Positions 3-21,284 of a stretch of 21,284 nucleotides of DNA are shown here, in pieces. Position numbers and translations under genes: made by a program. Source of the DNA: a virus; the IMG/VR virus record IMGVR_UViG_3300009103_001392, positions 1 through 21,284 of that record, one strand, 5' to 3'. A model generated the notes under the pieces. It searched no databases, was not told the origin of the DNA, and saw only the letters and a list, made by a program, of their open reading frames with translations. Numbering within the stretch: the first letter of the stretch is position 1; every line of letters begins with the position of its first letter.

Positions 3-632
3 TGGACTCCACCCGAGAACTACACTATTCGCTACGCTATTGATCACAATCCTAGCGCAAATAATCCTGATGCGGTCTTGTTCTGTGCAACTGCACCAAC
101 AGGAGAAGTATTCTTTTTCCATGAACTCTTTGATATACTATTGACTCCAGCTCTTTGCGAAAGTATGACTGAAGTGATGTGGGGTTATCATGTTGCAATG
201 GGATTAATTGACCCTATTGCATTTATTGAGAATCCAAATGACGGATCAACTACAGTTAGTGCTTTTGAGGAGAATGGAATCTCTCCAATGAGGGCAGCTA
301 AAGATCCAACAAGAGGATGGAGAGAAACTAACCAAGCCCTTAAAGAATTTACTCCACATGGCTTTCGTAGAGTTAGATTCTATGAAGGGTTAAGAAGAAC
401 TCTTTGGGAATTTGATCGTTATTGTGAAGATACTAACAAGCCAGGTAAAATTAAAGATGCTGGTAAGTGGCACATGATGGAGAATCTTTATCGAATGGTT
501 ATAGAGGGACTTGATTACGAAGAGCCTCAGTTAATGAGTGATTTCTTCTTGATTCCTCGAGGAGATGAAGTAACCCAGAAAGTTGAAAATAATGCAGATG
601 AGGTGGTATTCGGTACCAGATTTGGCGTATGA
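3..632 (+). CDS. terL: Terminase large subunit, C-terminal nuclease part (5' truncated)
   Basis: This is the motor-nuclease that cuts concatemeric phage DNA and drives it into the prohead through the portal. The reading frame is open from base 3, so the gene enters from the left edge; 209 residues remain and the ATPase domain lies outside. The TTG at base 78 is only an internal codon. The visible part begins with a strand ending in the motif YAIDHNP, whose Asp (codon 42-44) fits the first metal-binding Asp of the RNase H-like terminase nuclease. A second strand with a G-E-V-F-F-F-H-E-L pattern follows, as in many TerL nucleases. Near the end, DAGKWHMMENLYRM matches the usual D....H..(D/E)..RY helix carrying the last acidic ligand. 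The stop overlaps the portal start (ATGA), so the two are translationally coupled. Position directly before a portal gene supports the call. Family assignment is by motif and context only. Confidence 0.85.
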   Translation, partial: WTPPENYTIRYAIDHNPSANNPDAVLFCATAPTGEVFFFHELFDILLTPALCESMTEVMWGYHVAMGLIDPIAFIENPNDGSTTVSAFEENGISPMRAAKDPTRGWRETNQALKEFTPHGFRRVRFYEGLRRTLWEFDRYCEDTNKPGKIKDAGKWHMMENLYRMVIEGLDYEEPQLMSDFFLIPRGDEVTQKVENNADEVVFGTRFGV

Positions 633-2527
633 TGACTGAAGATGTTATAAAAGAACTTAATAGAGAAGAGCAGACTGACTTTCATGTTAGGCTGAAGAAT
701 AAGTGCATTACTCTTGTTGATGGTTCTCGTCAGGTAATGTCACAAGAATATTCCAAATGGGATAAGCGGCAGAAAGTCTACCTAGCTGAGAGGGACTTAG
801 ATCAAAAGGATCGTAAAGCGGTTGCAGATAACGAACCAACCAAGATGGTTATTCCAATGTCTACTGCTCAAATCAATACCTTTGTTTCTTCTTGTTTGAT
901 GCTGCTGAGGCAACGAGCAAGATTCTTTGAGTTTGATCCTAGTGGGACAGAAGATTATGTTCTGAGAGAGCCTAGCGAAAGGATTCTTGAGCGTGATCTT
1001 CGTTATAATAAGCATCACTCATTACTTCATCAGTTTTTCCTTAATCTTGCTCGTTACGGAATAGGAGTTATACGTCATCATTGGGTAGAAGAAACAGTTA
1101 AAGTTCTTCTCTCTGAACCTCAGGAAGTACTTGGTCAGTTAGTCGCACAAGCACCTGAATACCAAGAAGTACCTACTTATAGTGGAAATAAACTTGATGG
1201 CATTAGTCCTTACAATTTCTTCCCTGATACACGTCTCCCCTTAACTAAGCACCAAGAAGGTGAATATTGTGCTAGTGATGAAGAGTTCACTAAAGTCAAG
1301 TTACAAAGAATGGAGGACTCTGGTCTTGTAGCTGGAATTGAGCATGTTAAGCCTTTTACTGCACAGAATTTACATAAACGTTATCCTAACGGAGACTATA
1401 GATTCTATTCCGTAGATAAGAGTGATCCTACTCAAGATACAAATAACTTCTGTGTTACTGAGTGTCAGGTCTGGTTAACTCCTAGTGAATTTGAACTAGA
1501 GGGAGGTAAGAAGTTAGGCAAAGAAGATTTTCCAATACTTTATCTTGTCAACTATGTTAATGATGATAGGATTATTCGAGTGGAACCAATGAATAATATG
1601 CATTCAAGTTTCACCTATGAAGTAGCCCAGTTTACTCCCGACGAGCAAAGAAGGCTTTCGACCTCTTTGGCCGACATGGTAGGAGGGCTTCAGGAACTTT
1701 CTGATTGGTATATTAATGCACGAATAAGTGCAGTTAAGAAAACCTTGGAAAACAATATTGTAGTTGATCCTAGGTATATTAATATGCAATCACTTAAGAG
1801 TAGAAGTTCTATTGTAACTCTTTCTAAGCATGCACCGCAAGGAGGAATTGGCAGGACGGTTATGCCGCTTCCTGTACAGGATAATACTCAAAATCACTTC
1901 GACGATATTTCCCGCCTTAATGGTTTAATGGACCAGGCGACTGGTGTGATGGATCCTCTAAAGGGACAGGCCCAGCAAGGAAGACGTTCTGCCTTTGAGA
2001 TGCGTTCGGTTGTGCAAGGAGGAATGAACAGAATTGTCACTCTTTGCCTTCTGGCATGGGAGCAAGCTATTCAGCCTACCGGTATTCGGATGCTCACCAA
2101 TCACAGGCAGAATGTCGACCTAGCCACATTCACTAAGATTATGGGAGAGGACGTTGATCCTATAGTATTTAATGATTTCAGATCTTCTGCTATAGATTTA
2201 ATTGGAAACAATGATCTCTTTATCTTTGATGGAGTGTCTCCCTCAGAGAAAAACTACATGGCTGAATCACTTCAAGAGCTGTTTATTGCAATGCTTCAGC
2301 AACCTGATATTGCTATATCTAATGGATGGGATCTTAGTAAGATGCTGAAGGAGATTTATGAGCTTCGTGGAATTACAGGACTGGATAGATTCAAACTTAC
2401 TCCTGAAGAGCAGCAGCAACAAATGATGCAGCAAATGTTAATGAGTCAACAACAAGTACAACAAAATGGAAACGCTACCGCAAACAGAAGTCCCTCTCCT
2501 CCGATACGATCAGCGGGACTACAGTGA
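629..2527 (+). CDS. Portal protein
   Basis: The portal forms the dodecameric ring at one capsid vertex through which DNA enters and leaves. The 632-residue product has the size and layout of portals of short-tailed phages: a charged helical N-terminus, a DGISPYNFFPD segment near residues 190-200 like the usual 'v.P.dff.DP' motif, and a long middle region with paired hydrophobic helices. Around residues 425-455 an 'L.GLMDQATGVMDPLKG' stretch matches the portal tunnel-loop region that precedes the Gly-rich 'A.E.R..VQ' helix. The C-terminus (about residues 590-632) is Gln-rich and probably a disordered or barrel tail. The start is the first of two consecutive ATG codons overlapping the terminase stop. 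No Shine-Dalgarno sequence precedes it. The next gene begins inside its last 62 bases. Portal identity is well supported by gene order (terminase before, scaffold and capsid after) and by the motifs. Confidence 0.88.
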   Translation: MMTEDVIKELNREEQTDFHVRLKNKCITLVDGSRQVMSQEYSKWDKRQKVYLAERDLDQKDRKAVADNEPTKMVIPMSTAQINTFVSSCLMLLRQRARFFEFDPSGTEDYVLREPSERILERDLRYNKHHSLLHQFFLNLARYGIGVIRHHWVEETVKVLLSEPQEVLGQLVAQAPEYQEVPTYSGNKLDGISPYNFFPDTRLPLTKHQEGEYCASDEEFTKVKLQRMEDSGLVAGIEHVKPFTAQNLHKRYPNGDYRFYSVDKSDPTQDTNNFCVTECQVWLTPSEFELEGGKKLGKEDFPILYLVNYVNDDRIIRVEPMNNMHSSFTYEVAQFTPDEQRRLSTSLADMVGGLQELSDWYINARISAVKKTLENNIVVDPRYINMQSLKSRSSIVTLSKHAPQGGIGRTVMPLPVQDNTQNHFDDISRLNGLMDQATGVMDPLKGQAQQGRRSAFEMRSVVQGGMNRIVTLCLLAWEQAIQPTGIRMLTNHRQNVDLATFTKIMGEDVDPIVFNDFRSSAIDLIGNNDLFIFDGVSPSEKNYMAESLQELFIAMLQQPDIAISNGWDLSKMLKEIYELRGITGLDRFKLTPEEQQQQMMQQMLMSQQQVQQNGNATANRSPSPPIRSAGLQ

Positions 2528-2786
2528 TCAAGAAGTAACTAAACTGATTAAAGAATTAGAAGATTTTGAACAAACTTCACTTTATGAACTATTTCTCTGG
2601 GATGTTCAAGTAGAAATTGCAGAGATACGTAATGAGATTGAAGATGATGATACTCTTACTGAAAAACAAGTAGATAAATTAAGAGGCAAGGTAAGTAAAC
2701 TTAAAGACATTTCTATAAGATTCCCTTCCTTTGCCGAATATCTTCTTACAGTAATTAACCAAAATAACGACAACCAAAATGAGTGA
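2466..2786 (+). CDS. Small acidic protein overlapping the portal 3' end
   Basis: Function not recognised. The 106-residue product is strongly acidic and predicted helical, with a run IEDDDTLTEKQVDKLRGKV near residues 58-76 that looks like a helical hairpin. The ATG lies 62 bases inside the portal gene in another frame, and no ATG, GTG or TTG start is visible further down in this frame before conserved-looking sequence, so a long overlap seems genuine. The stop overlaps the scaffold start by 8 bases. It fills the only space between portal and scaffold, with the same codon style as its neighbours, which supports it being real. A small protein between portal and scaffold is common in phages and may be a head-assembly helper; that is inference. 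Upstream bases are CAA-rich without a Shine-Dalgarno sequence. Confidence 0.7.
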   Translation: METLPQTEVPLLRYDQRDYSDQEVTKLIKELEDFEQTSLYELFLWDVQVEIAEIRNEIEDDDTLTEKQVDKLRGKVSKLKDISIRFPSFAEYLLTVINQNNDNQNE

Positions 2787-3525
2787 TATTGTAGATCCAA
2801 GTCTAGTTGAAGATAATCAGTCTTTTGAGTCGGGTGGAGAAGTTGCAGATCAACAAACTACCGAGACTCAAGAACCGATTCAAGAAAATCCTAATGCAGA
2901 AATCGCATCTGCAATTCAAGAAGGGTTTAAGAATGTTCAGCAAAGTCAGCAGCCAGCAGAACCAGAACAACCTCAACTTACTCAAGAAGAGATTAATGAG
3001 CGGCTTAATATAACTTCTTTTGATGAGAAGGATGCCGCTTCTCTAAGAGAGGCTCTTCTTTCAGAAGATAATCCTGAACTGCTTGTAAACTTTTTGAATG
3101 GAATGCACCAACGTATGGCTGCCCAACACCAGACATACTCTAACTTGATAAACCAGAAGGCGCAAATGGATATAAACGATCAGTTTGCTCCAATGGCTAA
3201 TCATATTCAGCAACAAAGAAATGAAGCAATCAAAGAGCGTTTCTTTAAATCGAATGAATCCTTAAGGGATTTTAGTAAGGTTATTCCAATGGCAGCACAA
3301 GAACTTGCCAAAACAGAACAAACTTTTGCAAATGAGTCCGAAGAGTTTCAGGCTCTTGCAAAGCAAACTGAGAAACTAATCCAGCAATTTCAACCTGGAT
3401 TTAAACTCGGACAAGCAAAGAGTGGAGAACAACCTAAACCTGCGGCTTCACTTGGCGGCGGTACTGGCGGAGGATCGGGTGATTCCGTTTCCGTTAGTAT
3501 TGGTGCTGATCCGGCTATAAGGTAA
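2779..3525 (+). CDS. Capsid scaffolding protein (probable)
   Basis: Scaffolding proteins guide capsid subunits into a closed shell and then leave before or during DNA packaging. This 248-residue product fits by composition and place: it sits directly before the major capsid gene, is rich in Glu, Gln, Asn and Ala, and has almost no aromatic residues in its first 70 positions. The N-terminal third is acidic and probably disordered (many EPEQPQ-type stretches). The middle (about 75-215) is predicted helical and coiled-coil-like. The tail is a Gly/Ser-rich linker (about 225-240) before a short end. The start ATG overlaps the previous stop by 8 bases, and the leader reads AACCAAA just before ATG, with no Shine-Dalgarno site. 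No protease gene is visible nearby, so it may be expelled intact. The assignment rests on composition and order, not on a catalytic motif. Confidence 0.68.
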   Translation: MSDIVDPSLVEDNQSFESGGEVADQQTTETQEPIQENPNAEIASAIQEGFKNVQQSQQPAEPEQPQLTQEEINERLNITSFDEKDAASLREALLSEDNPELLVNFLNGMHQRMAAQHQTYSNLINQKAQMDINDQFAPMANHIQQQRNEAIKERFFKSNESLRDFSKVIPMAAQELAKTEQTFANESEEFQALAKQTEKLIQQFQPGFKLGQAKSGEQPKPAASLGGGTGGGSGDSVSVSIGADPAIR

Positions 3526-3559: not shown

Positions 3560-4942
3560 ATGGCTGGAATCATGGGATTGATTAGTGAGAAGGAGTTCTC
3601 CGACAACTCTTTCCACTCCTTTAATAATCGTCGGCAAACGTTTTGGAACTATCCTGAAGGCGCAGCTACACTTTCGTATCTGCTGTCTCTGATGGATTCA
3701 GAACCAACTGATACTCCTCTTAACTTCGGTTGGGAAGAGATTCGATACGCATATATTCGTACTCAAACTGCGGGTGGTGATGGTCCTTTTTCGGCGTCTG
3801 GTAGCGATACAGCTGCCTCTTCTCCGATGACTATTACACAAGATACTGAGTACCGTGTTGAGGTTGATGATACCTCGAACTTCCAAGTGAATGACTCCAT
3901 TATCTTTGTTGATATGGTGATCAACGGTACAACGAATCTTACCACTATTCGTGGTGTAGTGTCCTCTATTGTAAGCTCTACTAAGCTTGAGTTCCGTGCC
4001 TTGCACACTGTAACCAATGTGGTCAATACGCTTGCCTCTACTGTAGACAAGAATGTTGCTAAGATTGGTTCGGCTTATGCTGAAGGTAGTACGTCTGGAC
4101 AAGGCCGTATGCTTGTTCCTGTTGAGCCCACGAACAACACTCAGATCTTTAAGGATCCGGTTGAGTTCACTGGTTCAGCATTGAAGATTCCTACGGACTT
4201 CGATAAGACTGGCGCTTACAAAACTAAAGCTAAGACAACTGCTCTTGATCACGTAATTGGTCAGGAAATGGCTCTGCTCTTTGGTAAGAAGCACACCTTC
4301 AACAGTGCACTCGCCGCTGGTGGGTCATTTGGTGGTGCCACTACTCCTACTCGCACAATGGGTGGAATCCTGCACTTCCTTGAAGAGTGGGAAGCTACTG
4401 GCGGTGGAGCTGCTGGTTATCGTCCTGGTGGAGCTGCACTTACAGCTGATACTGCAGACGATAAGCGCATCATTGAGAACTCCACTGGTACAATGACTTC
4501 TGAAAAGTGGGATGAGTACACCGAGCGGGTATTCCGCAAGGCTAATACTCAGTCTCGCGAGAAGATCTGTCTTGTGGGTAATGGTGCTGCTAAGGCAATT
4601 AACCAACTCATTAAGCGTGAAATCGTGCGGGAAATTCCTGCTACTGATCGCGGTGATACTTGGAGAATGCGTGTTAAGTCGGTTGAAACTTCTTGGGGTA
4701 CACTTCACTTCAAGACCCATCCGTTGCTTACCGATACTCCCGGACTGTTCTATGCGATGTTTATCATCGACGTGCCGTTCCTTAAGTATCGTCCGCTTAA
4801 TGATCGTGATATGGTCAAACTCAATAATCGTCAGTCGAATGACGAGGATGGTCGTAAAGATCTGTGGTTGACTGAAGCCGGGCTAGAGCTTCAATTCCCC
4901 GAAGCGCACATGCTCATCAAAAACGTACAAAAGATTGTCTAA
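3560..4942 (+). CDS. Major capsid protein, SU10/DUF5309-like HK97 fold
   Basis: This 460-residue protein builds the icosahedral or elongated head shell. From about residue 190 it has the layout of the SU10-type major capsid family (DUF5309): 'NTQIFKDPVEFTGSALKI' near 192-209, a basic helix with GQEMALLFGKKH around 233-244, then TRTMGGILHFLEEW starting at residue 264, close to the 'R.TGGLL.F' motif of the family. The C-terminal part alternates strands and a long helix as expected. Residues about 73-165 form a beta-rich stretch (V.D...F.VND.I...V, then V.SIV.S.KLEF) that looks like an inserted or extended domain, possibly surface-exposed. Codons are richer in C-ending and preferred forms than in the neighbours, consistent with high expression. 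It follows the scaffold after a CAA-rich leader and is followed by a 3-base gap to the next gene. Family placement is from memory of motifs and gene order. Confidence 0.85.
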   Translation: MAGIMGLISEKEFSDNSFHSFNNRRQTFWNYPEGAATLSYLLSLMDSEPTDTPLNFGWEEIRYAYIRTQTAGGDGPFSASGSDTAASSPMTITQDTEYRVEVDDTSNFQVNDSIIFVDMVINGTTNLTTIRGVVSSIVSSTKLEFRALHTVTNVVNTLASTVDKNVAKIGSAYAEGSTSGQGRMLVPVEPTNNTQIFKDPVEFTGSALKIPTDFDKTGAYKTKAKTTALDHVIGQEMALLFGKKHTFNSALAAGGSFGGATTPTRTMGGILHFLEEWEATGGGAAGYRPGGAALTADTADDKRIIENSTGTMTSEKWDEYTERVFRKANTQSREKICLVGNGAAKAINQLIKREIVREIPATDRGDTWRMRVKSVETSWGTLHFKTHPLLTDTPGLFYAMFIIDVPFLKYRPLNDRDMVKLNNRQSNDEDGRKDLWLTEAGLELQFPEAHMLIKNVQKIV

Positions 4943-8946: not shown

Positions 8947-9492
8947 ATGCCAAATACAAGAGAATCATTGGCAGCTTTGGCTGCAATAGCTAACTTGTTT
9001 CCACAGGAACAGTCACTCACTATTGGTGATCTAATTGGACTGGATACTCAAATGAGGAACCAGAAGAGGTTAGATCAACAAGCACAGTTGCAACAACTGG
9101 CTTCACAAGAGGCACTTACTCAAGGTGCTTATGGTAGAACAATGGGAGACAAGCAGTTTGGGTTAGATGAGCAACGTGTAATGGATGCTGCAATGGCCCA
9201 GATGGCACAGCAGCAAATGCAACAACAGGCCTTAGGTCAAGCAGGAGAAAGAATTGCAATGGAGCAGCAACTTAGTCCTGCGAAAGTTGGATACTATGAA
9301 ACTGGTGCTCAGGCTAATCTGGCACGGATGCGTGCTGAAGAGGAAAAGAATGCCCTGATGAACATGTACTTACAGCGAGCTTTCCAACAACAAGGAGGAG
9401 GCCCACTTACTGGTGGAATGGGAGGTCCGCTTACTGATGTACAACAAGGACAACAGGCTTTTTATAATCAGGTATTCCAACCACAAATGTAG
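8947..9492 (+). CDS. Gln-rich coiled-coil protein, candidate ejection protein
   Basis: A 181-residue protein of unknown function. A short hydrophobic N-terminal helix (LAALAAIANLFP, about 8-19) is followed by a long Gln/Met/Ala-rich helical region (about 30-130) and a Gly/Gln-rich tail. There is no signal peptide. Such low-complexity helical proteins directly before a giant virion gene are commonly internal virion proteins that leave the head with the DNA; this role is inferred from composition and order. It starts two bases after the previous stop, without a Shine-Dalgarno site, and is followed after 11 bases by another low-complexity gene. Confidence 0.65.
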   Translation: MPNTRESLAALAAIANLFPQEQSLTIGDLIGLDTQMRNQKRLDQQAQLQQLASQEALTQGAYGRTMGDKQFGLDEQRVMDAAMAQMAQQQMQQQALGQAGERIAMEQQLSPAKVGYYETGAQANLARMRAEEEKNALMNMYLQRAFQQQGGGPLTGGMGGPLTDVQQGQQAFYNQVFQPQM

Positions 9493-9503
9493 AACTTAGA
9501 ACA

Positions 9504-10715
9504 ATGGCTTTATTCGGAACATCACAATCACCAAGTAGCAGGCTTATGGATGCCTTTCTTGCACAACAAGGAGGCGGACAACAGCAGGGAATCAATATGA
9601 ATCAGGCAATGAATCAGATTGGACAGCAACAAGATTTACGAAATCGTAGGATGGGAGACCTTGGTAGAAGGGCTTTTGGCGGTATTCGAAATAGAAGGGG
9701 CATGAGCGGAAACGTTATTGATCCTGTAACTGGGATAGAACCAAAAAGAGCATTACCTAATAACTTAGGTGCATGGTATGATGCGAATCCTAACGTCAGA
9801 AGAGGTGAATTTGATCCTACTGGAAGAATGACGAACTGGCGTAGCAATGTACAGAATACAACCGCTGATCTTAACCTCTTAGGAGAACAAGGACTAGCGA
9901 GACTTGCAAATGAAAAAATTGGATTAGCTAGAAGAAACCTTCATCAGCCACCCACAACTACAACTACACCTGCACCTACTCCTAGTAAACCTTCTGGTAG
10001 TGGGTATTCAATATACGATGTGTTTGGTGATATTGAGAACACTATAAATGACCTCATAACTGCATATAATAGTGACGACGGAGTTGTACCGCCTGATCAA
10101 CCACCCACAATTACACCTACACCTGATCCGTGGGGCGATATTGGAACGGGAGACGACCCATGGATGACTTCACTTGAAGGTTACCCGGCAGGTTTAGGGT
10201 CTGATTTTCAAAGAGCAGATGCTCGTGCTGAACCTGGTCCGCCTATGCCAACTCCTATGCCCACAATGGAAGTTGATCCAAGAGAAGCTCCACTTGGTGT
10301 AGATCCTGTTACTGGTGAGCCTAGAGTTCCAGGAAGCACGCGTGACCCGCATCCGAACACGCCCATGCCGGATTCAGTTTGGGGTGGTCAGCAAAGAGGA
10401 ATTGAGGATTTGGGAAAGGCTGATCCGTTTGATTTGATACAAAATCAAATGTATGATGCCTTAACTGATATTCAAGTTGCACCACAACATCAACGTGATG
10501 CTGCAACAAGACAAATCCATCATCAAACAGTAATGGAGTTATTGGAAGGCATGGATCCTGAAAGTTTCCTTTACCAACAGATACAAGAATATTACGGAAT
10601 GAATAAAGACAATCCAGGCAATCCAGGCAATCCACAATATAAGGACGATCCCTTTAGTGTTATTCAGTCATTCATTCAGCAACCTCAAGGCGGTATCCCC
10701 ACACCAGTACAGTAA
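9504..10715 (+). CDS. Pro/Gln-rich disordered protein upstream of giant gene
   Basis: A 403-residue protein without a recognised fold. The N-terminus has 'SRLMDAFLAQQGGGQQQ' followed by an Arg-rich patch (about 46-70: RNRRMGDLGRRAFGGIRNRR). Two Pro/Thr linkers lie near residues 147-165 (PTTTTTPAPTP) and 194-212 (PPDQPPTITPTPD), separated by a short helical piece (YSIYDVFGDIENTINDLITAY). More Pro/Asp/Met-rich sequence follows to about 290. A helical stretch (about 300-365) then leads to a small NPG repeat and a Gln/Pro end. The stop overlaps the ATG of the giant gene (TAATG), so the two are coupled. I infer a virion-internal partner or chaperone-like companion of the giant protein; the sequence gives no enzymatic clue. 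Confidence 0.65.
   Translation: MALFGTSQSPSSRLMDAFLAQQGGGQQQGINMNQAMNQIGQQQDLRNRRMGDLGRRAFGGIRNRRGMSGNVIDPVTGIEPKRALPNNLGAWYDANPNVRRGEFDPTGRMTNWRSNVQNTTADLNLLGEQGLARLANEKIGLARRNLHQPPTTTTTPAPTPSKPSGSGYSIYDVFGDIENTINDLITAYNSDDGVVPPDQPPTITPTPDPWGDIGTGDDPWMTSLEGYPAGLGSDFQRADARAEPGPPMPTPMPTMEVDPREAPLGVDPVTGEPRVPGSTRDPHPNTPMPDSVWGGQQRGIEDLGKADPFDLIQNQMYDALTDIQVAPQHQRDAATRQIHHQTVMELLEGMDPESFLYQQIQEYYGMNKDNPGNPGNPQYKDDPFSVIQSFIQQPQGGIPTPVQ
10611..10631. repeat. Short tandem 9-mer (NPG repeat)
   Basis: Two perfect copies of AATCCAGGC followed by a partial third (AATCCA) inside the 403-residue gene. They encode N-P-G units near residues 370-376. The in-frame repeat could expand or shrink by slippage without breaking the protein. 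Confidence 0.7.
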
Positions 10716-13700
10716 TGCCAATACAGCCACCACCACTCGAAGGAGTACAACGGAATCTCACTTTTAGTGAAGTAGAGGACGCTTATAGACGAGCGTTAAC
10801 TACTCCAAAAGGACAGTTCTATTTTCCCGAAGCGGAATTTCCACGTCGTTATGTTCAATATACAGATGGAACAATATCACGTGATGAAATTTATCCAACT
10901 TCGATGGGCTACACTGATGAAGGCCTAAGAAAGTTTGCACAACTTGGGAATCAGCTAACTGGAACTGAGGCTTTTCGTGCTGCTGATCTTGATAAGTGGG
11001 GAATGGCTTGGGCTAGAAGTGGGCAAGGTGTTAATGAAATTGCAGAGGATTATGGTGTTAAGTGGGCTGGTGGAAAGGTTGGTCAAGGAATAGGTGATCT
11101 GCTCTTTGATGATCCAGAGTTTGGGCATGAAATTGGCGAACATATGGGATCTGCCTTGGTTGCCTTTGCTCCTGCCCTTATTGGTGGAATACTTGGTAAG
11201 AGAGTTCCTGGTGCTCAGTATGCGGGTAATATGATAACGGGTGCTGCTATGAGTGGATTGAAGATGGAGCAAACAGGTGATCCACTTCGCTCTACAGTAG
11301 CAGGTGGGCTTGCAGCAGTTACACCATGGGGAATTCAGAAAGGAGCACATGCACTTACTCAAGGCGCAGCTAAAGTAGTTGGACCTAAGATATCTACAGC
11401 AGTTGGCACACTTCTTAACAGTAGTGCTGCTTTGGGCATGCCTGCCAGAACAGTTCCAAGTGCCGTTAGTAGCTTTGGAGTAACAGCAGGTGCAGATATA
11501 GTGGACATTGGGCTTGCTGACGATCGTACTCTTGGTGAGTTATCTCATCCTGATTATTGGAAGGCTCACACAATTGGAAGTGTAGCGTTCTTGCCATTCG
11601 ATGTTATGGCTGGTGTTGCCCTACATAAGAATGCTGTTGCGCAGCAGAGTCTAGTTAATGTTAATGCTGGAAATCGTGATGCTATTAGTCAATCCCGTCT
11701 GAATTCATTCGATGATAGGGTACTACAGCCACGGTCTATTGAGGATGTAGTTAGTGCTACAGGGTTGGGTAGGGATCAGACTCACACCTTCATGACTGTA
11801 GAAGAAAGGCAGGCAGCACGTAAAACGGATCCAATGTTTAAGTACACGGAGTTAGGCCAGAAACTTACTCCTGAAAGATTCGATGTTCTTTATGGAAAAG
11901 AGAAAGCGAAGATGGGTAAGTTCCTTTCTAAGTTTGAACAAGAGAATGTAAAGGCTGGAGAAGAGGCTAAGTTAGCATGGAAACGTTCTGCTGGACTTAT
12001 AGAGAAATATCCTTGGGATGATCCTGCAGCACCAAAAGATAGCGAAAGTAAGCCCGTAACTGAACAACGTACAAAACTTCCTGAAACTTCAGAGGAGTTT
12101 GCGACTCAGTTAAAGGGTATGAATAGGGCTCGAGAAGAGGCTGGACTTCTTCCTATTGATGATATTCCACTTCGAACAGCTGTCGAACGTGATATCAGAA
12201 AGGGTAGAGACCTTGCTACGGCAGAAAAACGCGCATTAAGGAAGTTTAGCGACCAATCAGAACGTGATATTCGTAGAGTAGAAGCAGGCAGAATTCAAAT
12301 TGAACGAGATCGTGTCTTTATGGATGAACTGGGGGAGCTACGTAAGTCAACACCAGAACACACAAAACAAGCAGATGCGTTTGAGGATGCTGTAACCAAG
12401 TATGCCGCAGATAGTACTTTACGGCAGGATGTTGAAAGGATTAAACGTGACTGGGAAACAAGACCAAGTGAAGAACAAGGAATTGCACCCTTGAGAGCAA
12501 AGCTTGATAATATTGTAGCTCGAGCGAAGAAACGAGCAGAGGCTAACCTTCCATCTGATCCCTCTAAGGCGGGCAGAAAGAGTGATGTTGAAGCTGGTAA
12601 TATTAACATGCAAGACCTTACAGCTAAGGTTGAGGCTCTAGGAAGCAAGAAGAACAGCGAGGTTTGGGCGATGTACGAGAAGTTTACTAGTGAACTTGAT
12701 CGTTTCATGGTATCAGGTGGCGAATCTGTTGCATTTTTCTCTGTGTTAAATAAGTGGTTTAAGGATGGAAATGGTGGTAAGATGGATGTGCTTGGTGGAC
12801 TGCTGAAAGCCAAGAAGGAGGGAATGAAATTGGATACCTGGAAAAAGGTAAAAGAATCAGGTCACGATGATGAGACTCTTCAAGGTCTTATGGATGGTGA
12901 AGGTCATAAACAGTGGATGGATGATCAGAATGAAGGCTTCGATGCAATGTTGCTTAAGCGCGCTGTTGAGAGTGATCAAGATTTCATTATGGGTATGACT
13001 GGAAGGATTAAGTACACTGAAGATAATCAACTAGTCATTGGAACTCCGAAAAATAGAATAAAGATAAGTGGCCTTATTGATGAAGAACGTTTAGTTAAGT
13101 TACTTCAAAAAGCACAAATTTCACCACCAGAATGGCAGGCTATTAAGAGGTCACAGGCAATAACGGATGAACAGTTTTTAGCTAGTCCAGCTGTAATGAA
13201 GCAACTCCTTAAGGGAGATTTTACTGGCGCAGCAGCAAGGTTTAAAGATAATTTAGTTGTTTATCCAGAGAAGGGTAAGCCTATAGTTAATGCTAAAAAT
13301 ATAGTAAATACTCTTAATCGTACTTTTATTACAATTAAAGATTTAGGCTTCCAAAGAGGCCCATCTAAAGATCCAGCAGTACTACAAAAAGAAGGTGAAG
13401 TAATTGCACTACATCAACAGCAGGCAGATATTGTACATCAGTTTGAGAGTTTAGCTCAAGACTTTGACGCTAATTTTATTAGAGATGTAAGCGGTACAGC
13501 TTTTACTGGCAAAGAACTTCTAAAGTTTTATGGTGAATTAAATACTCGAAGTTTTCCCCATGATGTAGCCAGAGAACCTAAAGAATATTTGCACTTGGAT
13601 GTGCTAGAAATGGCACGACTAGCAAAAGAGGAAACGTACAAGATTCAACGTGGACAGGACATTCCCCACGACGGACCACGACGTGATCAGGAAGCCTTGT

Positions 13701-16700
13701 TGGACCAAGGAGCTAAGATGTTTGATGAGTTCAGGCAAAGCTGGAAAGCATCTCATGAATTGTCAGCAGAAATGTCTAGATTCGGTATGGACGCACCCGA
13801 ACCAAGTCACAATCCTTTAGTGTCAGTTCAAACGCCATCTGGAACTATATATAGTGGTGAAGTGCCTCCAAACTGGCATGTACCCTTTACAAACATTGGT
13901 CCTTATGATACTCAAACAGTACCCTTTGTAATGAATAAAACAAATCCTACTGGAGATACTGGATTTGTGGTAGTTATGAAGGGAGGTGGTCAAGGCCAGA
14001 ACCATCAAGATGCTGAAGCTCACGGTCTACCAGCAGATAACATTGTATTCGGTCGTGGAAGATTTACAGAACATAACGGCGAACTTATCTATCATTTATA
14101 TGAAATGCAGTCTGATGGTCTACAGGCTATGTCAAAAGATATCGAGAATTTCGTTAATAGTCTAGTTGATACTAATACAGGTAAACCTGCTGATATACAT
14201 GTAAATAGACGAGCACTTCTTTATACTGGTGCTGAAGATTTACCAACACATATTAGAGCGCAAGCGAAAGCAAGTGCGGTTTATCAGCAGCAAGACTCTA
14301 TAATTGTTGGTGTTACTCATGAATTTAGGGCTGCTCGTGGACCAAGAACCAGAACTAATTACGACCAATTTGATGAGTTAAGAGCATACCGAAAAGAAGA
14401 GTATGGGAAACTTGGAGAGGCAATAGCACCTGAATGGGATCCTCGGTTAGTTCCTCTAGCTACTGCCGAAGAATTTTATATAGTTAATCCTAAAACAAAA
14501 GCAGTTCAGCTTTTAGAGCATTTTACTAAACTACCGTACAAGACAGGGTCGGTCAAGAAACGTGTTTCCACAAACAACGAAACTAGAACCCATTTATTTT
14601 TCAATGACTCTAAGACAATGCTTGATGATCTGTTAGCATTGGATAACCTTACACCGAGATGGGAAGAAAATGTACAAAACCATCCTTTACTTAAGAACAT
14701 CCAAGAGTTACGTGATCATGGTAAATACTTTAAAGAAAATCCTGATCTAAAGAAAAGGTTACTTCAACAAGCAGAAAAGGGTTGGCCAGAGGACGTAACT
14801 GATGTACTTCCTACAGAACACTCTTGGGCAGATGAAGCAATAATACCAGGCTCAAGTGCTATTAATAAAGGTATTAAAAAATACCTAACTGATAAAGCAC
14901 ACCCAATGCTTGATGAGTGGAAGAATATTGGACTACGTGCAACTGTATCACATGCAATTAAAGGAGGTGCAACAAAGCTTGTACTTGCCGATGGTACAAC
15001 AGTAAACTATGGTGAAGGACATAATGCCTCACTCAGACTTGCTGGTAGACCAAAAATAGAAGAGCTTTTTACTAGTGTGCAAAAAGATCTTGCTTTTGAA
15101 AAAGGTGAACTTGCAATAGCACCATGGCTAGGCCGCACTGGGCCTACTCAGGTACCACAACTACGAAATGCTTCCTTTTCTGAAAAACAAATTAATGATT
15201 TCTTCACTCATATGTGGGGAGCTGATTGGAGAGATGGTAATTATATTACACCTACCAAAGACCCCGTATCAAACAATTCTATTACTGCTAAAGCTGTAGA
15301 AGAAGGAACAGCAGATGCGTCTATAAAATTAGGTCAAAACCCACATTCAAATATTAACCAGAGTAATTTATTTTCTATTGGTATTTCCAATAAAATAAAC
15401 CTGCTAAACACTTTCCGTGTAGATAAACCTAAATCAAATGGTTCATTACGTGATATGGATCTAGCTTTACTAGCTAGTTTTCGTGATGCTGTCTATGCTT
15501 CAAAAGATATGCTGGTTGGTGTTGATAGTCATTCAACATTAACAGATTCAACTAGATTTGTAATTAGTAATCGATTGGGCGAAGTAGGCACACTAGATGA
15601 AATGCTTTGGCATCTTGGTTATAAAATGGATGACCGGATAAAGAATGATAGTCTTGCTGGACCAGGAAAATATGAAGCAGGAGACAGAAAGACTCGAGTT
15701 GAGCGTGCTTTAGAACTAGGTAAAGAAGTTCCACCATCAAGAGAACCAAATAAAGAAGTACTTGCTCTTCCCATTAGTCGTGCTAAGGGAATGGAAGTAA
15801 ACTACGATGAAATATATCCTAATACTTTAGCTAAGCTTACTGGTGAAAAAGGCGAACCAGTCAATTTAGGTAAAGGTTGGCGTGATCCAGCCAAAAGCGG
15901 CTTTGTGACTTCAATACCTAAAGGAGCGGAAATTTTCATACCATGGAATCAAAGAGATGTACACTTTCCAGAAATGGGTGTAGTGGCGGCAGATGCACCA
16001 GCAATAGCGGCACGTTATAGAAACGAACATTATCACCCAGAAGATAATCCAGTAATATTCGAAGTTCCCATAAAAGGATGGAGTGAGAAACCAATAAACG
16101 TATCTCCTAAAGTGAATGACGCTGGAGAAACATTCTACTTCAGGTTAATGGATTTACATCGACTGCATTCACAGGCTAGCTACTCAGACAAATTTAGTGA
16201 GTCTCAATTTACCAACTTTCGTAATCAAGAGATTGATACGACAATACGCCGACCGGCAAATGATCCAACCACTAACGCCCCAAACGCTAAACGTTCTGTT
16301 CCCACACCAGCAGCTCATTTTAGAGCATCAAAAGCTCGTGAAGGAAGTGTAGATCTTATTATAAACACTCCTAAAGATCTTACAAGATATGCAGAAGCTG
16401 CAAGAGATTACATTATTAATTGGTTACATTTGACTCCGAAAAGCAGCATTTATCATCAAGAACAACTTAATAGTATTATTGAGGCATTTGGCTTTAGACA
16501 AGATGATAATGTAATTCCTAAAGCATTTAGGCAAGGTAGCTTAAGTGAAGTTCCAATTACTAAACAAGGAGTACAACATACTGGTAATAAGGGTTTAAGT
16601 TTTGATCTAGGTAAAGCACAAGAATCCTACCAAAAGCTGGGTGGTGTTCCTATGCTAGGTAAGACTATTGGCTACGAACCACTAGGACTTAATCAAGCGA

Positions 16701-19700
16701 AGGCAGCAGAAAATATGCTTCTTCGTAATGGCTTTACTCCAGACGAAGCTGCAGCTCATGCACCATTTATTGAGAAAACTGGTAGGGCTTTTGAAGAGCT
16801 TTCAGGACAGAAGATTGAGATCGGTACTATTGTAGATGAGTCAGGTAGGGTTGCTGGACTATCTTCACGTTCACCGGTTCAGCGAGAAATTCTAGTTAAC
16901 CCAAAGTTAGCTGGTAATGCTCCACTCTATAGTATGCTACATGAGGCCTTTGGTCACCAGATGGTTAAGTCCTTCGAGCTAGGTCAACTTGATTTGCAGA
17001 CAACCAGAGTGGTCGAGAACTACCTCAAGACTATGGTCGATGCTAGTCCTGCTGAACTTTCCAAATTGTGGGACAGCTGGGCTAAATCTTCACTAGATAA
17101 GGAAACATATGGCACGACACGTGAGGCTGTAATGGAGGCAATGAACCAACCAGCAGAAGCCGCATCTAACTTTGCAGCTCTGGCAGCGTGGGATTCAATA
17201 ACTAAAGCAGACCCTTACCAGCATATTAAGTTTCTGCCTTATCCAATAGCCAGGTTCGTTGTAGAGACTATGCGATACATGGGGCAGGTATTTACAGCCA
17301 TGAAAGACTGGTTTAATTATCGTCTCCTATCTAATGATGTTTCGTTTGAGAATTGGAAAAGCATTAGGAACTTTGAATCTAAGATTAGTGAGACATTCAA
17401 TAAGGTAGCTAATCAGGAGCACAGAGATCGTGTAGCGTTCGAGCGCCTTGGTATGGTTATGCCAGGTGAAACTGGACGCTATAGAAGTGATGCCATCATA
17501 GACGCTGAAGGACTGATGTTCAAGGGCAATAAGTCACTTAATATGATGGCAGACGCTATGCTATTACCTGGAAGTAAGAAGGGTAAGGAGTTACTGAAAA
17601 AGGCTGCGGATATTTGGGAGCCTATTCTTCACAGAGCAGAGCGATACCCAGCACTAGTCCCTTATGCTAACTGGTTAAGAGGTGAAAGTAATGTTGGACA
17701 TATGCTCCACAGAACACTCCTTGCTCCTATCTTCTCTAAGCGAGGAGAGGATGGTTCACTTCTTATGGATGATCTGCAAAGACCTATCATTGAACGGAGA
17801 GGGACTGCTGATAAAGTGCTTGGTGACAAGAAACTGATAACCGCTTTCAGTGATATTCTTCGTGCACAAAATACAGAAAGAAAGTCGATTGCAGGAATTA
17901 AAGAAGATAATCCCAAGCTGTATAATGATCTTATGGAAGGAAGGTCTGCGAAAGAGATCAATATGCTTGAGGAAATGTCGGCTAGGTTTAAGGAGGCTAC
18001 TGTTCGAGCACAGACTGAAATCATTGAAAAGCTTCATGGTAAGGGACAGAAGTTGTTTGCTAGGTTTCTTAGGAAAGATGTTGAGGGTAGCAATCAAGAT
18101 GTATTAAGAACAGCAGAGGAACTCTATAATCAGTACAGGGTGTCAAGAGACACTGAACAGTGGGAACCTTATATGATAAGAGCTGCAGAACTTGGACTAG
18201 ATGCGGGCGTGATGAGAAGATTCCTTGAGCCTTATATCAATGACCTAGCTAAGCAGAAAGACTTCTTTAGAGGCAACCAACATTACGTGAGTGAGAAACG
18301 TTGGAAACGCTATCATGTTGCGTATGATGATCCAAACCAGAAGGCAACAGGACGTGCTTCATATGATTCTCCTAGTGAGGCTCTAGCCGCAGGTGCCGCT
18401 CTTAGAAAGAAGGGATTTAAGCTACTCTATCCTAGAGTGTTTAAGGATATGTGGACAGGAAAGAATCGTCCAGAGCTTGAGGCACTTGATGAAACGCTTG
18501 ACTTTGCCTACATGAAAACCTTCACTCGTGAGATGACGAGAATGAAAGAGGAAGGTCTAATTGATGCAGAAGTTGCAGCTGACTTGGATGCTGCAGCTCA
18601 GAATTACCGAGCATCTATTGAGTCGGCTGGTATGACTCAGGATGTTACAAAGTTAGGATCAGCTAGGAGGTTTGCTCCTGGTAGGGAAGAGTTAGATATG
18701 GCACTACAGCATATGGTGTGGCTGAGCAAAGTATCACATAGAGTTCCCCAGCTTGAGACTGATGCTATGATGAGGTTTGGTGCAGTCGATCCTGCGGTCA
18801 TTGGTGATGCTAATCACTTCAGTATGTTCGAGCAGCTTGGACAAGCAATAACTAACTTTAGAAGAACAGATACTGAGCTAGGCCAGCAGTTACTTAAAGG
18901 AGCATTCGCTCACTATATGATCTTCCGCACTTCAACTGCAATGATCGAGGCTGCGAGTTGGCCTCTGTGGTTAAGTCCACACTTGACTGAAGAAGGAGCG
19001 GGAATGGTATCTAGCTATACTCTACCTACTGAAGCCTCTGCACATGTTGCTGGATTTAATCTTACTGGTAAGTGGAATTCTGGTATAACAGTAGATATTG
19101 GTGGGAAGCAAGTCGATGCTTATGCTGCACTAATTGAACGTGCTGCTGCATTCAGAAGGCTAGGTAGAGGACGCTCTGCAGAATTCTTTGAAGCTGCATG
19201 GAAGTCCCAAGAAGATCTAGGACGTATTGCCAAAGGTATGGAGCCTATGGGAGAAAAACTAATAACCAGACCTGCTGGTTGGATGTTTAATACTGGAGCG
19301 AAGCTATACTCCTGGTTCGTTTCCGTCAATAGTATGATTGGTTATATTAGTGCTTTCAATATGAAGAGAAAGCAGCTCTTTAAGAACAAGAAGAACCTCA
19401 GCGAAAGAGAGTTCAATACTTTGTTTGACGAGGCAGACAGGATTACTGAGATTGTTAATAATGACATTGGCAGAGCCGGACGTCCTACCGGATTGTTCTC
19501 TGGTTGGCGTACACCGGGCATGGTTCTCCACTCACTACAGAGCTTCAACTCTGCGCAGATTTCGAACATCTGGCGGAGAGGTGTGAAGGGACTTACTTGG
19601 GGTGAGACGGCTCAACGGTTTACGCCTAAAGAGAGAGCGCAGGCACGTAAGGCAGCTGTTCAAGGCTTCGTAAGTTTAGCCATGGGTGCAGGTGTATTAG

Positions 19701-20713
19701 GAGCAATACCTTTTGCTAGGTCTTTAGTAGCTCTACTTGAGAAACATACCGAACTCGAAATTGAGAAAGAACTAAGACAGCTAATTGCTGATCAGTTCGA
19801 GGACCCCGAGACAAGTACCTTCATGGCTGATCTAGCTACACATGGATTAGCTTATGCAGCAGGCTCAGAATATGATTTATCAGGTCGCCTAGCTCTGTCA
19901 GGTACAGCTGGATTTAATGACTATGAAGGATGGAGTCTTGCAAGCCTAGGTGGACCTATTGTAGGACAGTTTGAAGGTTACGTTAAAGGTGCTGGGAATG
20001 TATTAAAGGGTGACTTAAGTAAGGCACTTGAAGATACTCTCCCTAAAGGATTCAAGGATCTTTATATGGCCTTTCGTGCTGATGGAGCTGTTAACAGTCC
20101 AGACGGAAAAGTCAAATACCTACCAACAGATTCAGAACGGATAGGTATAGCAATGGGCTTTCAGCCTTCAGCTCTCAGTCAAATGAGAGAAGAACAACGG
20201 ATTGGTTCAAAGAGTGAAAGAGTTATTCGAGATCGCAATCGACGTTTCTACAAGCAGGTAGCTAAGGCAGCTAAAAATCAAGGTCCGCTTGTTGCTCAAC
20301 AGATGATTCGTGAGAAGGCTCAAACGACTCCCGGCTTTTCAGAACAAGGAGCGTATGATGGAGTAATCGCTTATCTGGAACGGGAGGAGTTCGGTCAAGA
20401 TACTCGTCGCCAAGGTTCAGTTCAGGGTGCTCTCGAAGCGCGAAGGATCGCTCAAACTTTCCGAGATCGCGGTACTCCAAGATATTCAAAACTTCAAGAA
20501 GCAGAACACGAACTGGGTGCAAGGGCTTCATTGGGTGATAGTAGGGTACTTAATTTTAGACCTGAACAGTTTAGTCATGCTGTTCTTGTGGACCTGATTC
20601 AAAACCAAACCGGTTTGAACTTCGATGCTGCTGGCTTTCTTGCTCGTCAATTAAGTTCTCCTTCTCCTGAAGCCGTGCCAACTGTGCAGGCGTTCCTAGA
20701 AGAACCATTCTAG
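10715..20713 (+). CDS. Giant polyvalent-type virion protein (3332 aa)
   Basis: One uninterrupted frame of 3332 codons. Residues 1-100: 'NLTFSEVEDAYRRAL' and a charged start. About 140-305: Gly/Ala-rich hydrophobic helices (such as MGSALVAFAPALIGGILG at 144-161 and VAFLPFDVMAGVAL near 290-303), likely membrane-active. About 370-640: long charged helices. About 800-1000: helical segments with 'KISGLIDEERLVKLL'. About 1090-1440: a module with EMQSD at 1130-1134, then W1402 and 'L..TVSHAIKGGATKLVL'. The matching GMEVNYDEIYP follows only at 1692-1702, after some 260 residues. HEAFGH at 2076-2081 fits an HExxGH zincin motif. About 2860-3010: LPD38-like helices with 'DIGRAGRPTGLFSGWRT' near 2920 and a hydrophobic stretch (2984-3008). 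'GFQPSALSQMREEQR' near 3145 resembles the usual end of such proteins. This fits the large polyvalent proteins of phages, thought to be packaged and delivered with DNA. I found no convincing RNA-polymerase motifs. Confidence 0.8.
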   Translation: MPIQPPPLEGVQRNLTFSEVEDAYRRALTTPKGQFYFPEAEFPRRYVQYTDGTISRDEIYPTSMGYTDEGLRKFAQLGNQLTGTEAFRAADLDKWGMAWARSGQGVNEIAEDYGVKWAGGKVGQGIGDLLFDDPEFGHEIGEHMGSALVAFAPALIGGILGKRVPGAQYAGNMITGAAMSGLKMEQTGDPLRSTVAGGLAAVTPWGIQKGAHALTQGAAKVVGPKISTAVGTLLNSSAALGMPARTVPSAVSSFGVTAGADIVDIGLADDRTLGELSHPDYWKAHTIGSVAFLPFDVMAGVALHKNAVAQQSLVNVNAGNRDAISQSRLNSFDDRVLQPRSIEDVVSATGLGRDQTHTFMTVEERQAARKTDPMFKYTELGQKLTPERFDVLYGKEKAKMGKFLSKFEQENVKAGEEAKLAWKRSAGLIEKYPWDDPAAPKDSESKPVTEQRTKLPETSEEFATQLKGMNRAREEAGLLPIDDIPLRTAVERDIRKGRDLATAEKRALRKFSDQSERDIRRVEAGRIQIERDRVFMDELGELRKSTPEHTKQADAFEDAVTKYAADSTLRQDVERIKRDWETRPSEEQGIAPLRAKLDNIVARAKKRAEANLPSDPSKAGRKSDVEAGNINMQDLTAKVEALGSKKNSEVWAMYEKFTSELDRFMVSGGESVAFFSVLNKWFKDGNGGKMDVLGGLLKAKKEGMKLDTWKKVKESGHDDETLQGLMDGEGHKQWMDDQNEGFDAMLLKRAVESDQDFIMGMTGRIKYTEDNQLVIGTPKNRIKISGLIDEERLVKLLQKAQISPPEWQAIKRSQAITDEQFLASPAVMKQLLKGDFTGAAARFKDNLVVYPEKGKPIVNAKNIVNTLNRTFITIKDLGFQRGPSKDPAVLQKEGEVIALHQQQADIVHQFESLAQDFDANFIRDVSGTAFTGKELLKFYGELNTRSFPHDVAREPKEYLHLDVLEMARLAKEETYKIQRGQDIPHDGPRRDQEALLDQGAKMFDEFRQSWKASHELSAEMSRFGMDAPEPSHNPLVSVQTPSGTIYSGEVPPNWHVPFTNIGPYDTQTVPFVMNKTNPTGDTGFVVVMKGGGQGQNHQDAEAHGLPADNIVFGRGRFTEHNGELIYHLYEMQSDGLQAMSKDIENFVNSLVDTNTGKPADIHVNRRALLYTGAEDLPTHIRAQAKASAVYQQQDSIIVGVTHEFRAARGPRTRTNYDQFDELRAYRKEEYGKLGEAIAPEWDPRLVPLATAEEFYIVNPKTKAVQLLEHFTKLPYKTGSVKKRVSTNNETRTHLFFNDSKTMLDDLLALDNLTPRWEENVQNHPLLKNIQELRDHGKYFKENPDLKKRLLQQAEKGWPEDVTDVLPTEHSWADEAIIPGSSAINKGIKKYLTDKAHPMLDEWKNIGLRATVSHAIKGGATKLVLADGTTVNYGEGHNASLRLAGRPKIEELFTSVQKDLAFEKGELAIAPWLGRTGPTQVPQLRNASFSEKQINDFFTHMWGADWRDGNYITPTKDPVSNNSITAKAVEEGTADASIKLGQNPHSNINQSNLFSIGISNKINLLNTFRVDKPKSNGSLRDMDLALLASFRDAVYASKDMLVGVDSHSTLTDSTRFVISNRLGEVGTLDEMLWHLGYKMDDRIKNDSLAGPGKYEAGDRKTRVERALELGKEVPPSREPNKEVLALPISRAKGMEVNYDEIYPNTLAKLTGEKGEPVNLGKGWRDPAKSGFVTSIPKGAEIFIPWNQRDVHFPEMGVVAADAPAIAARYRNEHYHPEDNPVIFEVPIKGWSEKPINVSPKVNDAGETFYFRLMDLHRLHSQASYSDKFSESQFTNFRNQEIDTTIRRPANDPTTNAPNAKRSVPTPAAHFRASKAREGSVDLIINTPKDLTRYAEAARDYIINWLHLTPKSSIYHQEQLNSIIEAFGFRQDDNVIPKAFRQGSLSEVPITKQGVQHTGNKGLSFDLGKAQESYQKLGGVPMLGKTIGYEPLGLNQAKAAENMLLRNGFTPDEAAAHAPFIEKTGRAFEELSGQKIEIGTIVDESGRVAGLSSRSPVQREILVNPKLAGNAPLYSMLHEAFGHQMVKSFELGQLDLQTTRVVENYLKTMVDASPAELSKLWDSWAKSSLDKETYGTTREAVMEAMNQPAEAASNFAALAAWDSITKADPYQHIKFLPYPIARFVVETMRYMGQVFTAMKDWFNYRLLSNDVSFENWKSIRNFESKISETFNKVANQEHRDRVAFERLGMVMPGETGRYRSDAIIDAEGLMFKGNKSLNMMADAMLLPGSKKGKELLKKAADIWEPILHRAERYPALVPYANWLRGESNVGHMLHRTLLAPIFSKRGEDGSLLMDDLQRPIIERRGTADKVLGDKKLITAFSDILRAQNTERKSIAGIKEDNPKLYNDLMEGRSAKEINMLEEMSARFKEATVRAQTEIIEKLHGKGQKLFARFLRKDVEGSNQDVLRTAEELYNQYRVSRDTEQWEPYMIRAAELGLDAGVMRRFLEPYINDLAKQKDFFRGNQHYVSEKRWKRYHVAYDDPNQKATGRASYDSPSEALAAGAALRKKGFKLLYPRVFKDMWTGKNRPELEALDETLDFAYMKTFTREMTRMKEEGLIDAEVAADLDAAAQNYRASIESAGMTQDVTKLGSARRFAPGREELDMALQHMVWLSKVSHRVPQLETDAMMRFGAVDPAVIGDANHFSMFEQLGQAITNFRRTDTELGQQLLKGAFAHYMIFRTSTAMIEAASWPLWLSPHLTEEGAGMVSSYTLPTEASAHVAGFNLTGKWNSGITVDIGGKQVDAYAALIERAAAFRRLGRGRSAEFFEAAWKSQEDLGRIAKGMEPMGEKLITRPAGWMFNTGAKLYSWFVSVNSMIGYISAFNMKRKQLFKNKKNLSEREFNTLFDEADRITEIVNNDIGRAGRPTGLFSGWRTPGMVLHSLQSFNSAQISNIWRRGVKGLTWGETAQRFTPKERAQARKAAVQGFVSLAMGAGVLGAIPFARSLVALLEKHTELEIEKELRQLIADQFEDPETSTFMADLATHGLAYAAGSEYDLSGRLALSGTAGFNDYEGWSLASLGGPIVGQFEGYVKGAGNVLKGDLSKALEDTLPKGFKDLYMAFRADGAVNSPDGKVKYLPTDSERIGIAMGFQPSALSQMREEQRIGSKSERVIRDRNRRFYKQVAKAAKNQGPLVAQQMIREKAQTTPGFSEQGAYDGVIAYLEREEFGQDTRRQGSVQGALEARRIAQTFRDRGTPRYSKLQEAEHELGARASLGDSRVLNFRPEQFSHAVLVDLIQNQTGLNFDAAGFLARQLSSPSPEAVPTVQAFLEEPF

Positions 20714-21284
20714 GCGGACCAGCCTGTTCGTACTTTTCAAGTACCTTATCATCGACTAGCTGCTTGATAGCTTCTTGAATCTCTTGAGTTGAGCCGTCGG
20801 GTCTGAACTGGTGCATGATCTTCTTCAGATTCTGCGGTACTTCAACGATCTCCATAGCAGTACGAATCTTGTTAGCAATATCAGCGACAGGATTTCTACC
20901 AGATAAGGAGAATATACGATGAAAGTTCTTTTCTGTAGCATCGACTAGTTCAACAGCTTTGAGAAAAGACTCGACAGAAAGTAACCGTTCTTTAGATATA
21001 GCTAACTCATAGAGCATAGCAGTACGAAGGATAATCTGGTCCTTTGAATTCAGCCATGACGCCATGAAGGGTACTGACTCATTCTTCATACGTTGTCTAT
21101 TAGACATGTACCAATCTTCATAGGCTTCCATTGTGTTGGGTCCGAAAGTAAATGGACCTTTAACAGTAAGTAAATCCTTTGCCCACTTGAGGCAGTAATC
21201 CCTGGCTTGCATTTGAGCATCAGTAAGTGTACGCATAGGAACACACTTACCTGAGAACCCTGATACAACAAAGACGCAACGTCG
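20571..21284 (-). CDS. Replication primase/helicase-like protein, C-terminal part (5' truncated)
   Basis: The frame is open to the right edge (16 further codons upstream of the ATG at 21236, with no stop), so the gene continues beyond the window; 237 residues remain. Features that recall the C-terminal region of DUF3987-type phage primase/helicase proteins: 'F.FGPNTMEAYEDWYMSNRQR' placed before a 'R.AMLYELAISKERLLSVE.FLKAVELV..TE' helix pair (the 'R..KLAM..Als...i....l..Ai.lv..E' pattern), then a predicted winged-helix-like end (ANKIRTAMEI... and IQEAIKQLVDDKVLEKY). The ATPase or primase core would lie outside. The last 47 codons run antisense to the end of the giant gene; that tail is Gln/Glu/Ser-rich and probably disordered. 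Being convergent with the structural genes fits a separate replication module. Family is by pattern memory; a different replication protein is possible. Confidence 0.55.
   Translation of the reverse strand, partial: RRCVFVVSGFSGKCVPMRTLTDAQMQARDYCLKWAKDLLTVKGPFTFGPNTMEAYEDWYMSNRQRMKNESVPFMASWLNSKDQIILRTAMLYELAISKERLLSVESFLKAVELVDATEKNFHRIFSLSGRNPVADIANKIRTAMEIVEVPQNLKKIMHQFRPDGSTQEIQEAIKQLVDDKVLEKYEQAGPPRMVLLGTPAQLARLQEKENLIDEQESQQHRSSNRFGFESGPQEQHD
20606..20617. repeat. Perfect 12-bp palindrome CAAACCGGTTTG
   Basis: A perfect 12-base palindrome lies in the antisense overlap of the giant and replication-type genes. It has no loop, and no T-run follows on either strand, so it is not a classical terminator. 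It could bind a dimeric protein or be chance. Confidence 0.3.

Follow-up and report, generated by a model that had tools for sequence, protein, structure and literature searches.

A single gene takes up nearly half of the window, which is a whole IMG/VR contig of podovirus type with a length of 21,284 bases, and the question raised by this locus is what kind of protein the gene encodes and what its parts may do. The giant gene (10715..20713, + strand) runs from an ATG to a stop codon over 3332 aa with zero internal stops, and the longest stop-to-stop frame of the window has 3351 codons. In 50 dinucleotide shuffles of the window the longest frame averaged 146 codons and never exceeded 217. The single 3332-codon frame claimed earlier in a sequence-only reading of this DNA was found to be intact. 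The GC content was highest in codon position 1 and lowest in codon position 3 in 7/7 blocks of the gene, and this uniform pattern therefore indicates one gene without a frameshift. The whole protein and pieces of 300-832 aa gave zero significant matches in Pfam and PHROGs, and sequence searches of solved structures returned nothing significant for the protein, its termini or the EQSD module described below. Searches made directly against phages and plasmids, at the DNA and the protein level, revealed no close sequence relative of the giant, the matches being confined to the C-terminal, DarB-like region.

The giant gene is located at the end of the virion-gene block. A portal protein (629..2527, +; phrog_332, E 4.5e-22) and the major capsid protein (3560..4942, +; phrog_1328, E 1.3e-19, and relatives) are followed by small genes upstream of the giant. 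The last two of these are of low complexity, one with 19% Gln (8947-9492) and one encoding 403 aa rich in Pro, Gly and Gln (9504..10715, +), the last base of which is the first base of the start codon of the giant. The low-complexity neighbours noticed earlier are thus present, whereas no family match makes any neighbour the adaptor that had been named along with them. Capsid proteins with 27-28% identity to that of the window are found in Roseobacter phage CRP-810, Microcystis phage Mel-JY34, Vibrio phage VS-ABTNL-3 and Caulobacter phage Kuura. In the last three of these phages a long gene likewise ends the virion block, or stands within two small genes of its end, and genes on the opposite strand including a DNA polymerase come after it. 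A search for the host by way of the capsid protein gave remote matches only, spread over many phyla.

Two further genes were noticed in the window. A convergent gene (20571-21284, −), incomplete at the contig end, covers the final 143 bp of the giant gene, matches a DNA primase weakly (phrog_14296, E 9e-4) and has homologues in 9 relatives. The convergent 3′ overlap ranges from −120 to +230 bp among the relatives, and such a variable overlap at the 3′-end of the giant was judged to be ordinary. A 106-aa ORF in another frame (2466-2786) shares 62 bp with the 3′-end of the portal gene, and no relatives of it were detected among the fetched loci.

Relatives of the virus were found by searching with the capsid protein, which gave 80 loci. 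A match to the C-terminal 1,132 residues of the giant was present in 17 of 25 records from this search (E down to 3e-36), and a homologous giant gene is present at the same position, as the last gene of the head block with convergent genes next to it, in at least 16 environmental viruses of IMG/VR. The complete giants of the relatives are 1,817-2,645 aa long, and the one in the window is the longest. Alignment of the clade displayed two conserved ends (residues 60-310 and about 2,500-3,300) around a middle that differs in size and content; BLAST to single relatives covers residues 65-301 and 2,508-3,321. Conserved through the clade are the hydrophobic N-terminus, a zincin site and the C-terminal helical region. 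The N-terminal region (aa 60-310; 10892..11644, +), supported by alignment A5 of 15 viruses, by BLAST and by hydropathy, is glycine-rich and holds three hydrophobic segments at 142-165, 250-268 and 284-304, in accordance with the hydrophobic N-terminus read earlier from the letters. It is followed by a charged and poorly conserved middle stretch (aa 311-1054; 11645..13876, +) with no family match. In two members of the clade, L092 and L096, the giant genes have two HExxH motifs each. The giant of L092 also has a Pfam LPD23 match at 1025-1055 (E 1e-12), and such a match was found in two clade members. Two relatives have another large ORF elsewhere, about 1,190 aa long (L091:10075-13653, −, and L034:2536-6087).

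The C-terminal helical region (aa 2500-3332; 18212..20710, +) was assigned to the tail-700 superfamily from alignment, profiles and a structural model. The tail-700 (PLxRFG) profile NF032893 matches the giant at aa 2967-3197 (19613..20305, +; E 1.9e-16, 59.7 bits), spanning profile positions 393-634 of 681. The score lies under the curated cut-off of 100 bits for the whole protein and also for the C-terminal piece (64.6 bits). The same profile matches 13 of the 16 alignment members, the best relative at 3.2e-42. A fourth hydrophobic segment (aa 2980-3009; 19652..19741, +), identified by hydropathy, has an equivalent position in nearly all relatives as well as in gp30 of phage POI1126, which is itself a full tail-700 member with 929 bits. 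By hhalign, the clade profile and the C-terminus of POI1126 gp30 were related with 99.5% probability (E 4e-22, 594 columns). Judged by these profiles, the giant is a member of the tail-700 superfamily, as a divergent variant that stands outside the curated membership.

The C-terminus had earlier been called LPD38-like. As a Pfam identity LPD38 (PF18857) was rejected, since the profile found nothing at E 10 in the window or in 18 related records, searches in which the controls were also silent, and NF032893 matches instead; the same PF18857 profile matches JC1 gp69 at 6e-34. Something of that name nevertheless survives. Compared family against family by hhalign, the tail-700 and LPD38 C-termini matched at E 2.9e-4 over 374 columns, whereas 22 controls, including a reversed and 20 column-shuffled ones, gave 0.4 or worse, and the two families are likely, though not proved, to be remotely related. 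The model of the C-terminus is almost wholly helical (mean pLDDT 66.6). Its structural matches were to phage entries named 'large polyvalent protein associated domain' (top E 5e-25, TM about 0.5), with a weak one to internal virion protein D of Roseobacter phage CRP-4 (E 2e-4, prob 1.0); Foldseek against the PDB gave no match, which carries little weight for a helical model of middling confidence. The search in windows for LPD or polyvalent families, proposed along with the earlier reading, thus found none in Pfam or PHROGs and did find matches in NCBIfam and in structure. The kinship to polyvalent and DarB-like proteins that had been suggested is borne out by the tail-700 and POI1126 matches, the structural matches, the zincin site and the place of the gene as the last of the virion block.

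The zincin-like metallopeptidase region (aa 2030-2165; 16802..17209, +) was delimited from alignment A10, and pLDDT is about 67-92 over about 2060-2165. The HExxGH motif picked out earlier is HEAFGH (aa 2076-2081; 16940..16957, +), an HExxxH variant that aligns with the HExxH of the relatives, and E2148 (17156-17158, +), aligned with their downstream glutamate, is the candidate third ligand. HExx(G)H was present in 16 of 17 giants, whereas shuffling would give 0.58, and the site of L088 is degenerate. The motif longer by one residue is found again in L098 (HELIGH), and the like motif HEGAGH is located at a comparable place in L136. In Foldseek the best PDB match of the region was the zincin PPEP-2, weakly (E 0.33, prob 0.30). 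The A10 profile had its best match in 7bqs (E 0.0015), mostly outside the HExxH columns, and its sub-threshold matches were mostly metalloproteases, e.g. Wss1p (E 0.09). The models point tentatively to a zincin fold for residues 2030-2165. HEXXXH forms a described subset of the peptidases in polyvalent proteins, for which roles in processing have been suggested, be it ahead of packaging, within the head or following injection (PMC5512222).

The EMQSD sequence noticed earlier is located at residues 1130-1134 of the giant and belongs to a three-motif module, the EQSD module (aa about 1055-1823; 13877..16183, +), which is common to the window and the relatives L087 and L095 and is delimited by 39 other viral loci, conserved residues and a model. 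Motif 1 (aa 1103-1137; 14021..14125, +) contains H1103, R1114 and E1130-x-Q1132-S1133-D1134, all invariant in 21/21 others, with a pLDDT of about 90. Motif 2 (aa 1397-1437; 14903..15025, +) is a helix-strand element recognised from conservation and the model, and motif 3 (aa 1692-1719; 15788..15871, +) has the conserved pattern GM....YD..(Y)P...LTG.KG. Also invariant in the 21 aligned others and the window are A1414, G1418, Y1697 and D1698. The window departs from its relatives by N1108 to D, W1135 to G and A1136 to L, and by a change of the near-invariant K1408 to R. Its motifs are split by inserts of about 260 and 250 aa that most relatives are without, and stretch 1435-1690 therefore looked unfamiliar in the sequence-only reading. 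Stretches 1435-1690 and 1750-1960, said there to match nothing, are largely EQSD inserts or the last element of the module; for 370-800 the statement stands, as no family match was found.

A scan detected the module in 40 viral loci, one of them the contig of L087 itself, and mostly within large ORFs; in the clade a minority of the relatives carry it. The tail-700 end was found in 5 of 34 other ORFs with the module, most of the others being without it within the sequence examined, and the module is therefore shuffled. In many EQSD ORFs an HExxH motif is also present, at a distance of a few hundred residues. The loci L112-L151 (e.g. L139, L141, L145 and L147) include many giant ORFs with EQSD and no detected tail-700 end, and the canonical form in them, EEVQSDWAQKG...MKRMIRYAAENGFDRIAWTTGEQQ...GMKAFYDK, has no Pfam name. 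In L136 the frame read has the module at residue 686 and HEGAGH at 1567; with an N-terminal region, EQSD, HExxGH and tail-700, this ORF has the architecture closest to that of the window.

The module might have been thought to be LPD3 (PF18798). This identity was rejected: the window has no Pfam match to LPD3, and the LPD3 stretches of JC1 and POI1126 are without the EQSD motif and differ in sequence. The EQSD modules of the relatives likewise had no significant Pfam match. From comparison of the motifs, the EQSD module is an uncatalogued three-motif module separate from LPD3, and it is the most interesting piece of a divergent giant.

In the AlphaFold model the three motifs and a strand near 1803-1808 converge, in a middle of low overall confidence (mean pLDDT 47). 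All of the best 50 VIA matches of the EQSD model were of GNAT fold (Z 6.0-8.6, 94-146 residues), among them AtaT, Naa10, Naa50, Eis and Rv1916, with the model mostly of low confidence and with the caveat that a Z under 8 may reflect a common arrangement. The module thus resembles GNAT acetyltransferases in its model. The acetyl-CoA loop (Q/R)xxGx(G/A) is absent; the window has QSDGLQAMSKD, and the glycines are missing in most relatives. It is conceivable, and we put it forward tentatively, that EQSD is an unnamed GNAT-fold enzyme family in which an active site of E-x-Q-S-D, H, R and YD replaces the acetyl-CoA loop. Such enzymes would be delivered at entry by giant virion proteins, often near a releasing zincin, and would modify a host target so that defence is disarmed or the cell redirected.

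From the observed gene, its homologues and position, the conserved core, the motifs and the module boundaries, we consider it probable that the giant is carried inside the virion of a podovirus-type phage and ejected from it, and that it is a divergent polyvalent protein of the tail-700/PLxRFG kind with a peptidase that frees or processes an effector part. By analogy with known systems, the giant would be made late alongside the head genes, packaged into the capsid and, upon infection, would leave it together with the DNA or before it. The host envelope may be contacted or spanned by the hydrophobic N-terminal region and by the hydrophobic segment of the C-terminal helices, and the predicted zincin (HEAFGH...E2148) may cleave the giant itself or a host protein. 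A freed central cargo including the GNAT-like EQSD module would then act inside the host, possibly by acyltransfer. That the giant is both an ejection machine and a delivered enzyme set, as was proposed earlier, is plausible. That interpretation was right in kind, with two of its named parts corrected, tail-700 taking the place of LPD38 and a separate GNAT-like module that of a known LPD.

Fixed ends with an exchanged middle fit an ejected cargo protein, and they also fit a purely structural ejection protein. In the main rival, which we regard as somewhat unlikely, the giant is mainly an ejection-channel protein like T7 gp16: the helical ends form the conduit, the zincin and EQSD parts are structural or act locally, e.g. 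in opening the envelope, and the cytoplasm receives no enzyme. The restriction of clade-wide conservation to the N-terminal region, the zincin and the C-terminal helices, with EQSD in a minority, speaks for such a conduit, as does the likeness of the C-terminal model to internal virion proteins. Against it stand the enzyme-like EQSD residues that are invariant across divergent giants, and the variation of the middle in size and content, which is as expected of cargo.

The giant could also act outside the virion, as a late or early host-takeover polyprotein that is made in the infected cell and processed by its own zincin. Giant polyproteins with peptidases can act after synthesis, and no mass-spectrometry data were found for the clade. 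We nevertheless hold this to be very unlikely, given that the gene sits in the virion-gene block, that the ends of its product are hydrophobic, as would be expected for passage through the envelope, and that the giants of JC1 and P1 occur in virions: JC1 gp69, the counterpart of the giant in its phage, was identified in purified virions by 51 unique peptides in mass spectrometry (PMC9144972), and DarB of P1 is carried in the capsid and is believed to pass into the cell (PMC9024508). A dead HExxGH site, with the giant packaged and acting uncut, is unlikely. The motif longer by one residue is unusual, and the virion RNA polymerase of N4 is packaged unprocessed (PMC5512222); against this, HEXXXH is a described peptidase subset, and H, E and H are kept where the longer form recurs in L098 and the like motif in L136. 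The ejected polyvalent protein with a predicted peptidase remains our preferred reading.

Giant virion proteins occupy a large share of many phage genomes. The clade of uncultured viruses described here shows which parts are fixed (a membrane-prone start, a peptidase and a helical tail) and which are exchanged, and the EQSD module, which is conserved and enzyme-like and has no Pfam entry, lends itself to direct study as a recombinant domain of short length.

Several known systems may be compared with the giant. Like the polyvalent proteins of Iyer et al. 2017 (PMC5512222), it combines at least two unrelated domains in one phage ORF, here the EQSD module, the zincin and tail-700, in a late-gene context, and the zincin-type peptidase motif, with the HEXXXH form included, is common to both. 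Unlike that set, it carries EQSD, a module without a Pfam match. The tail-700 giants of NF032893, including DarB-like POI1126, PBC5, LASTA, Kuura and VS-ABTNL-3, share with it the giant size and a homologous C-terminal part, about 700 aa long, that includes a hydrophobic segment. The giant at the end of the virion block also carries tail-700 in Kuura, Mel-JY34 and VS-ABTNL-3. POI1126 gp30 differs by its methylase-helicase dyad, LPD3, LPD39 and InPase, which the window is without. Burkholderia phage JC1 gp69 and the Bcep22 DarB-like proteins are likewise last in the virion block and multi-domain, and JC1 gp69 also has a zincin-like HEAFH motif and a hydrophobic segment near its C-terminus. Its C-terminus, however, is Pfam LPD38, and its other domains include transglycosylase, methylase, helicase and LPD3; the giant of the window showed no lytic transglycosylase, methylase or helicase domain of the kind seen in JC1 or POI1126. 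For the giant, a role analogous to that of internal virion protein D of T7-like phages (CRP-4) is proposed; the weak structural match between them has TM-scores of 0.22-0.27, with no full-length sequence homology shown. Finally, the comparison of LPD38 with tail-700 suggests that two separately catalogued DarB-like C-termini may be one ancient module.
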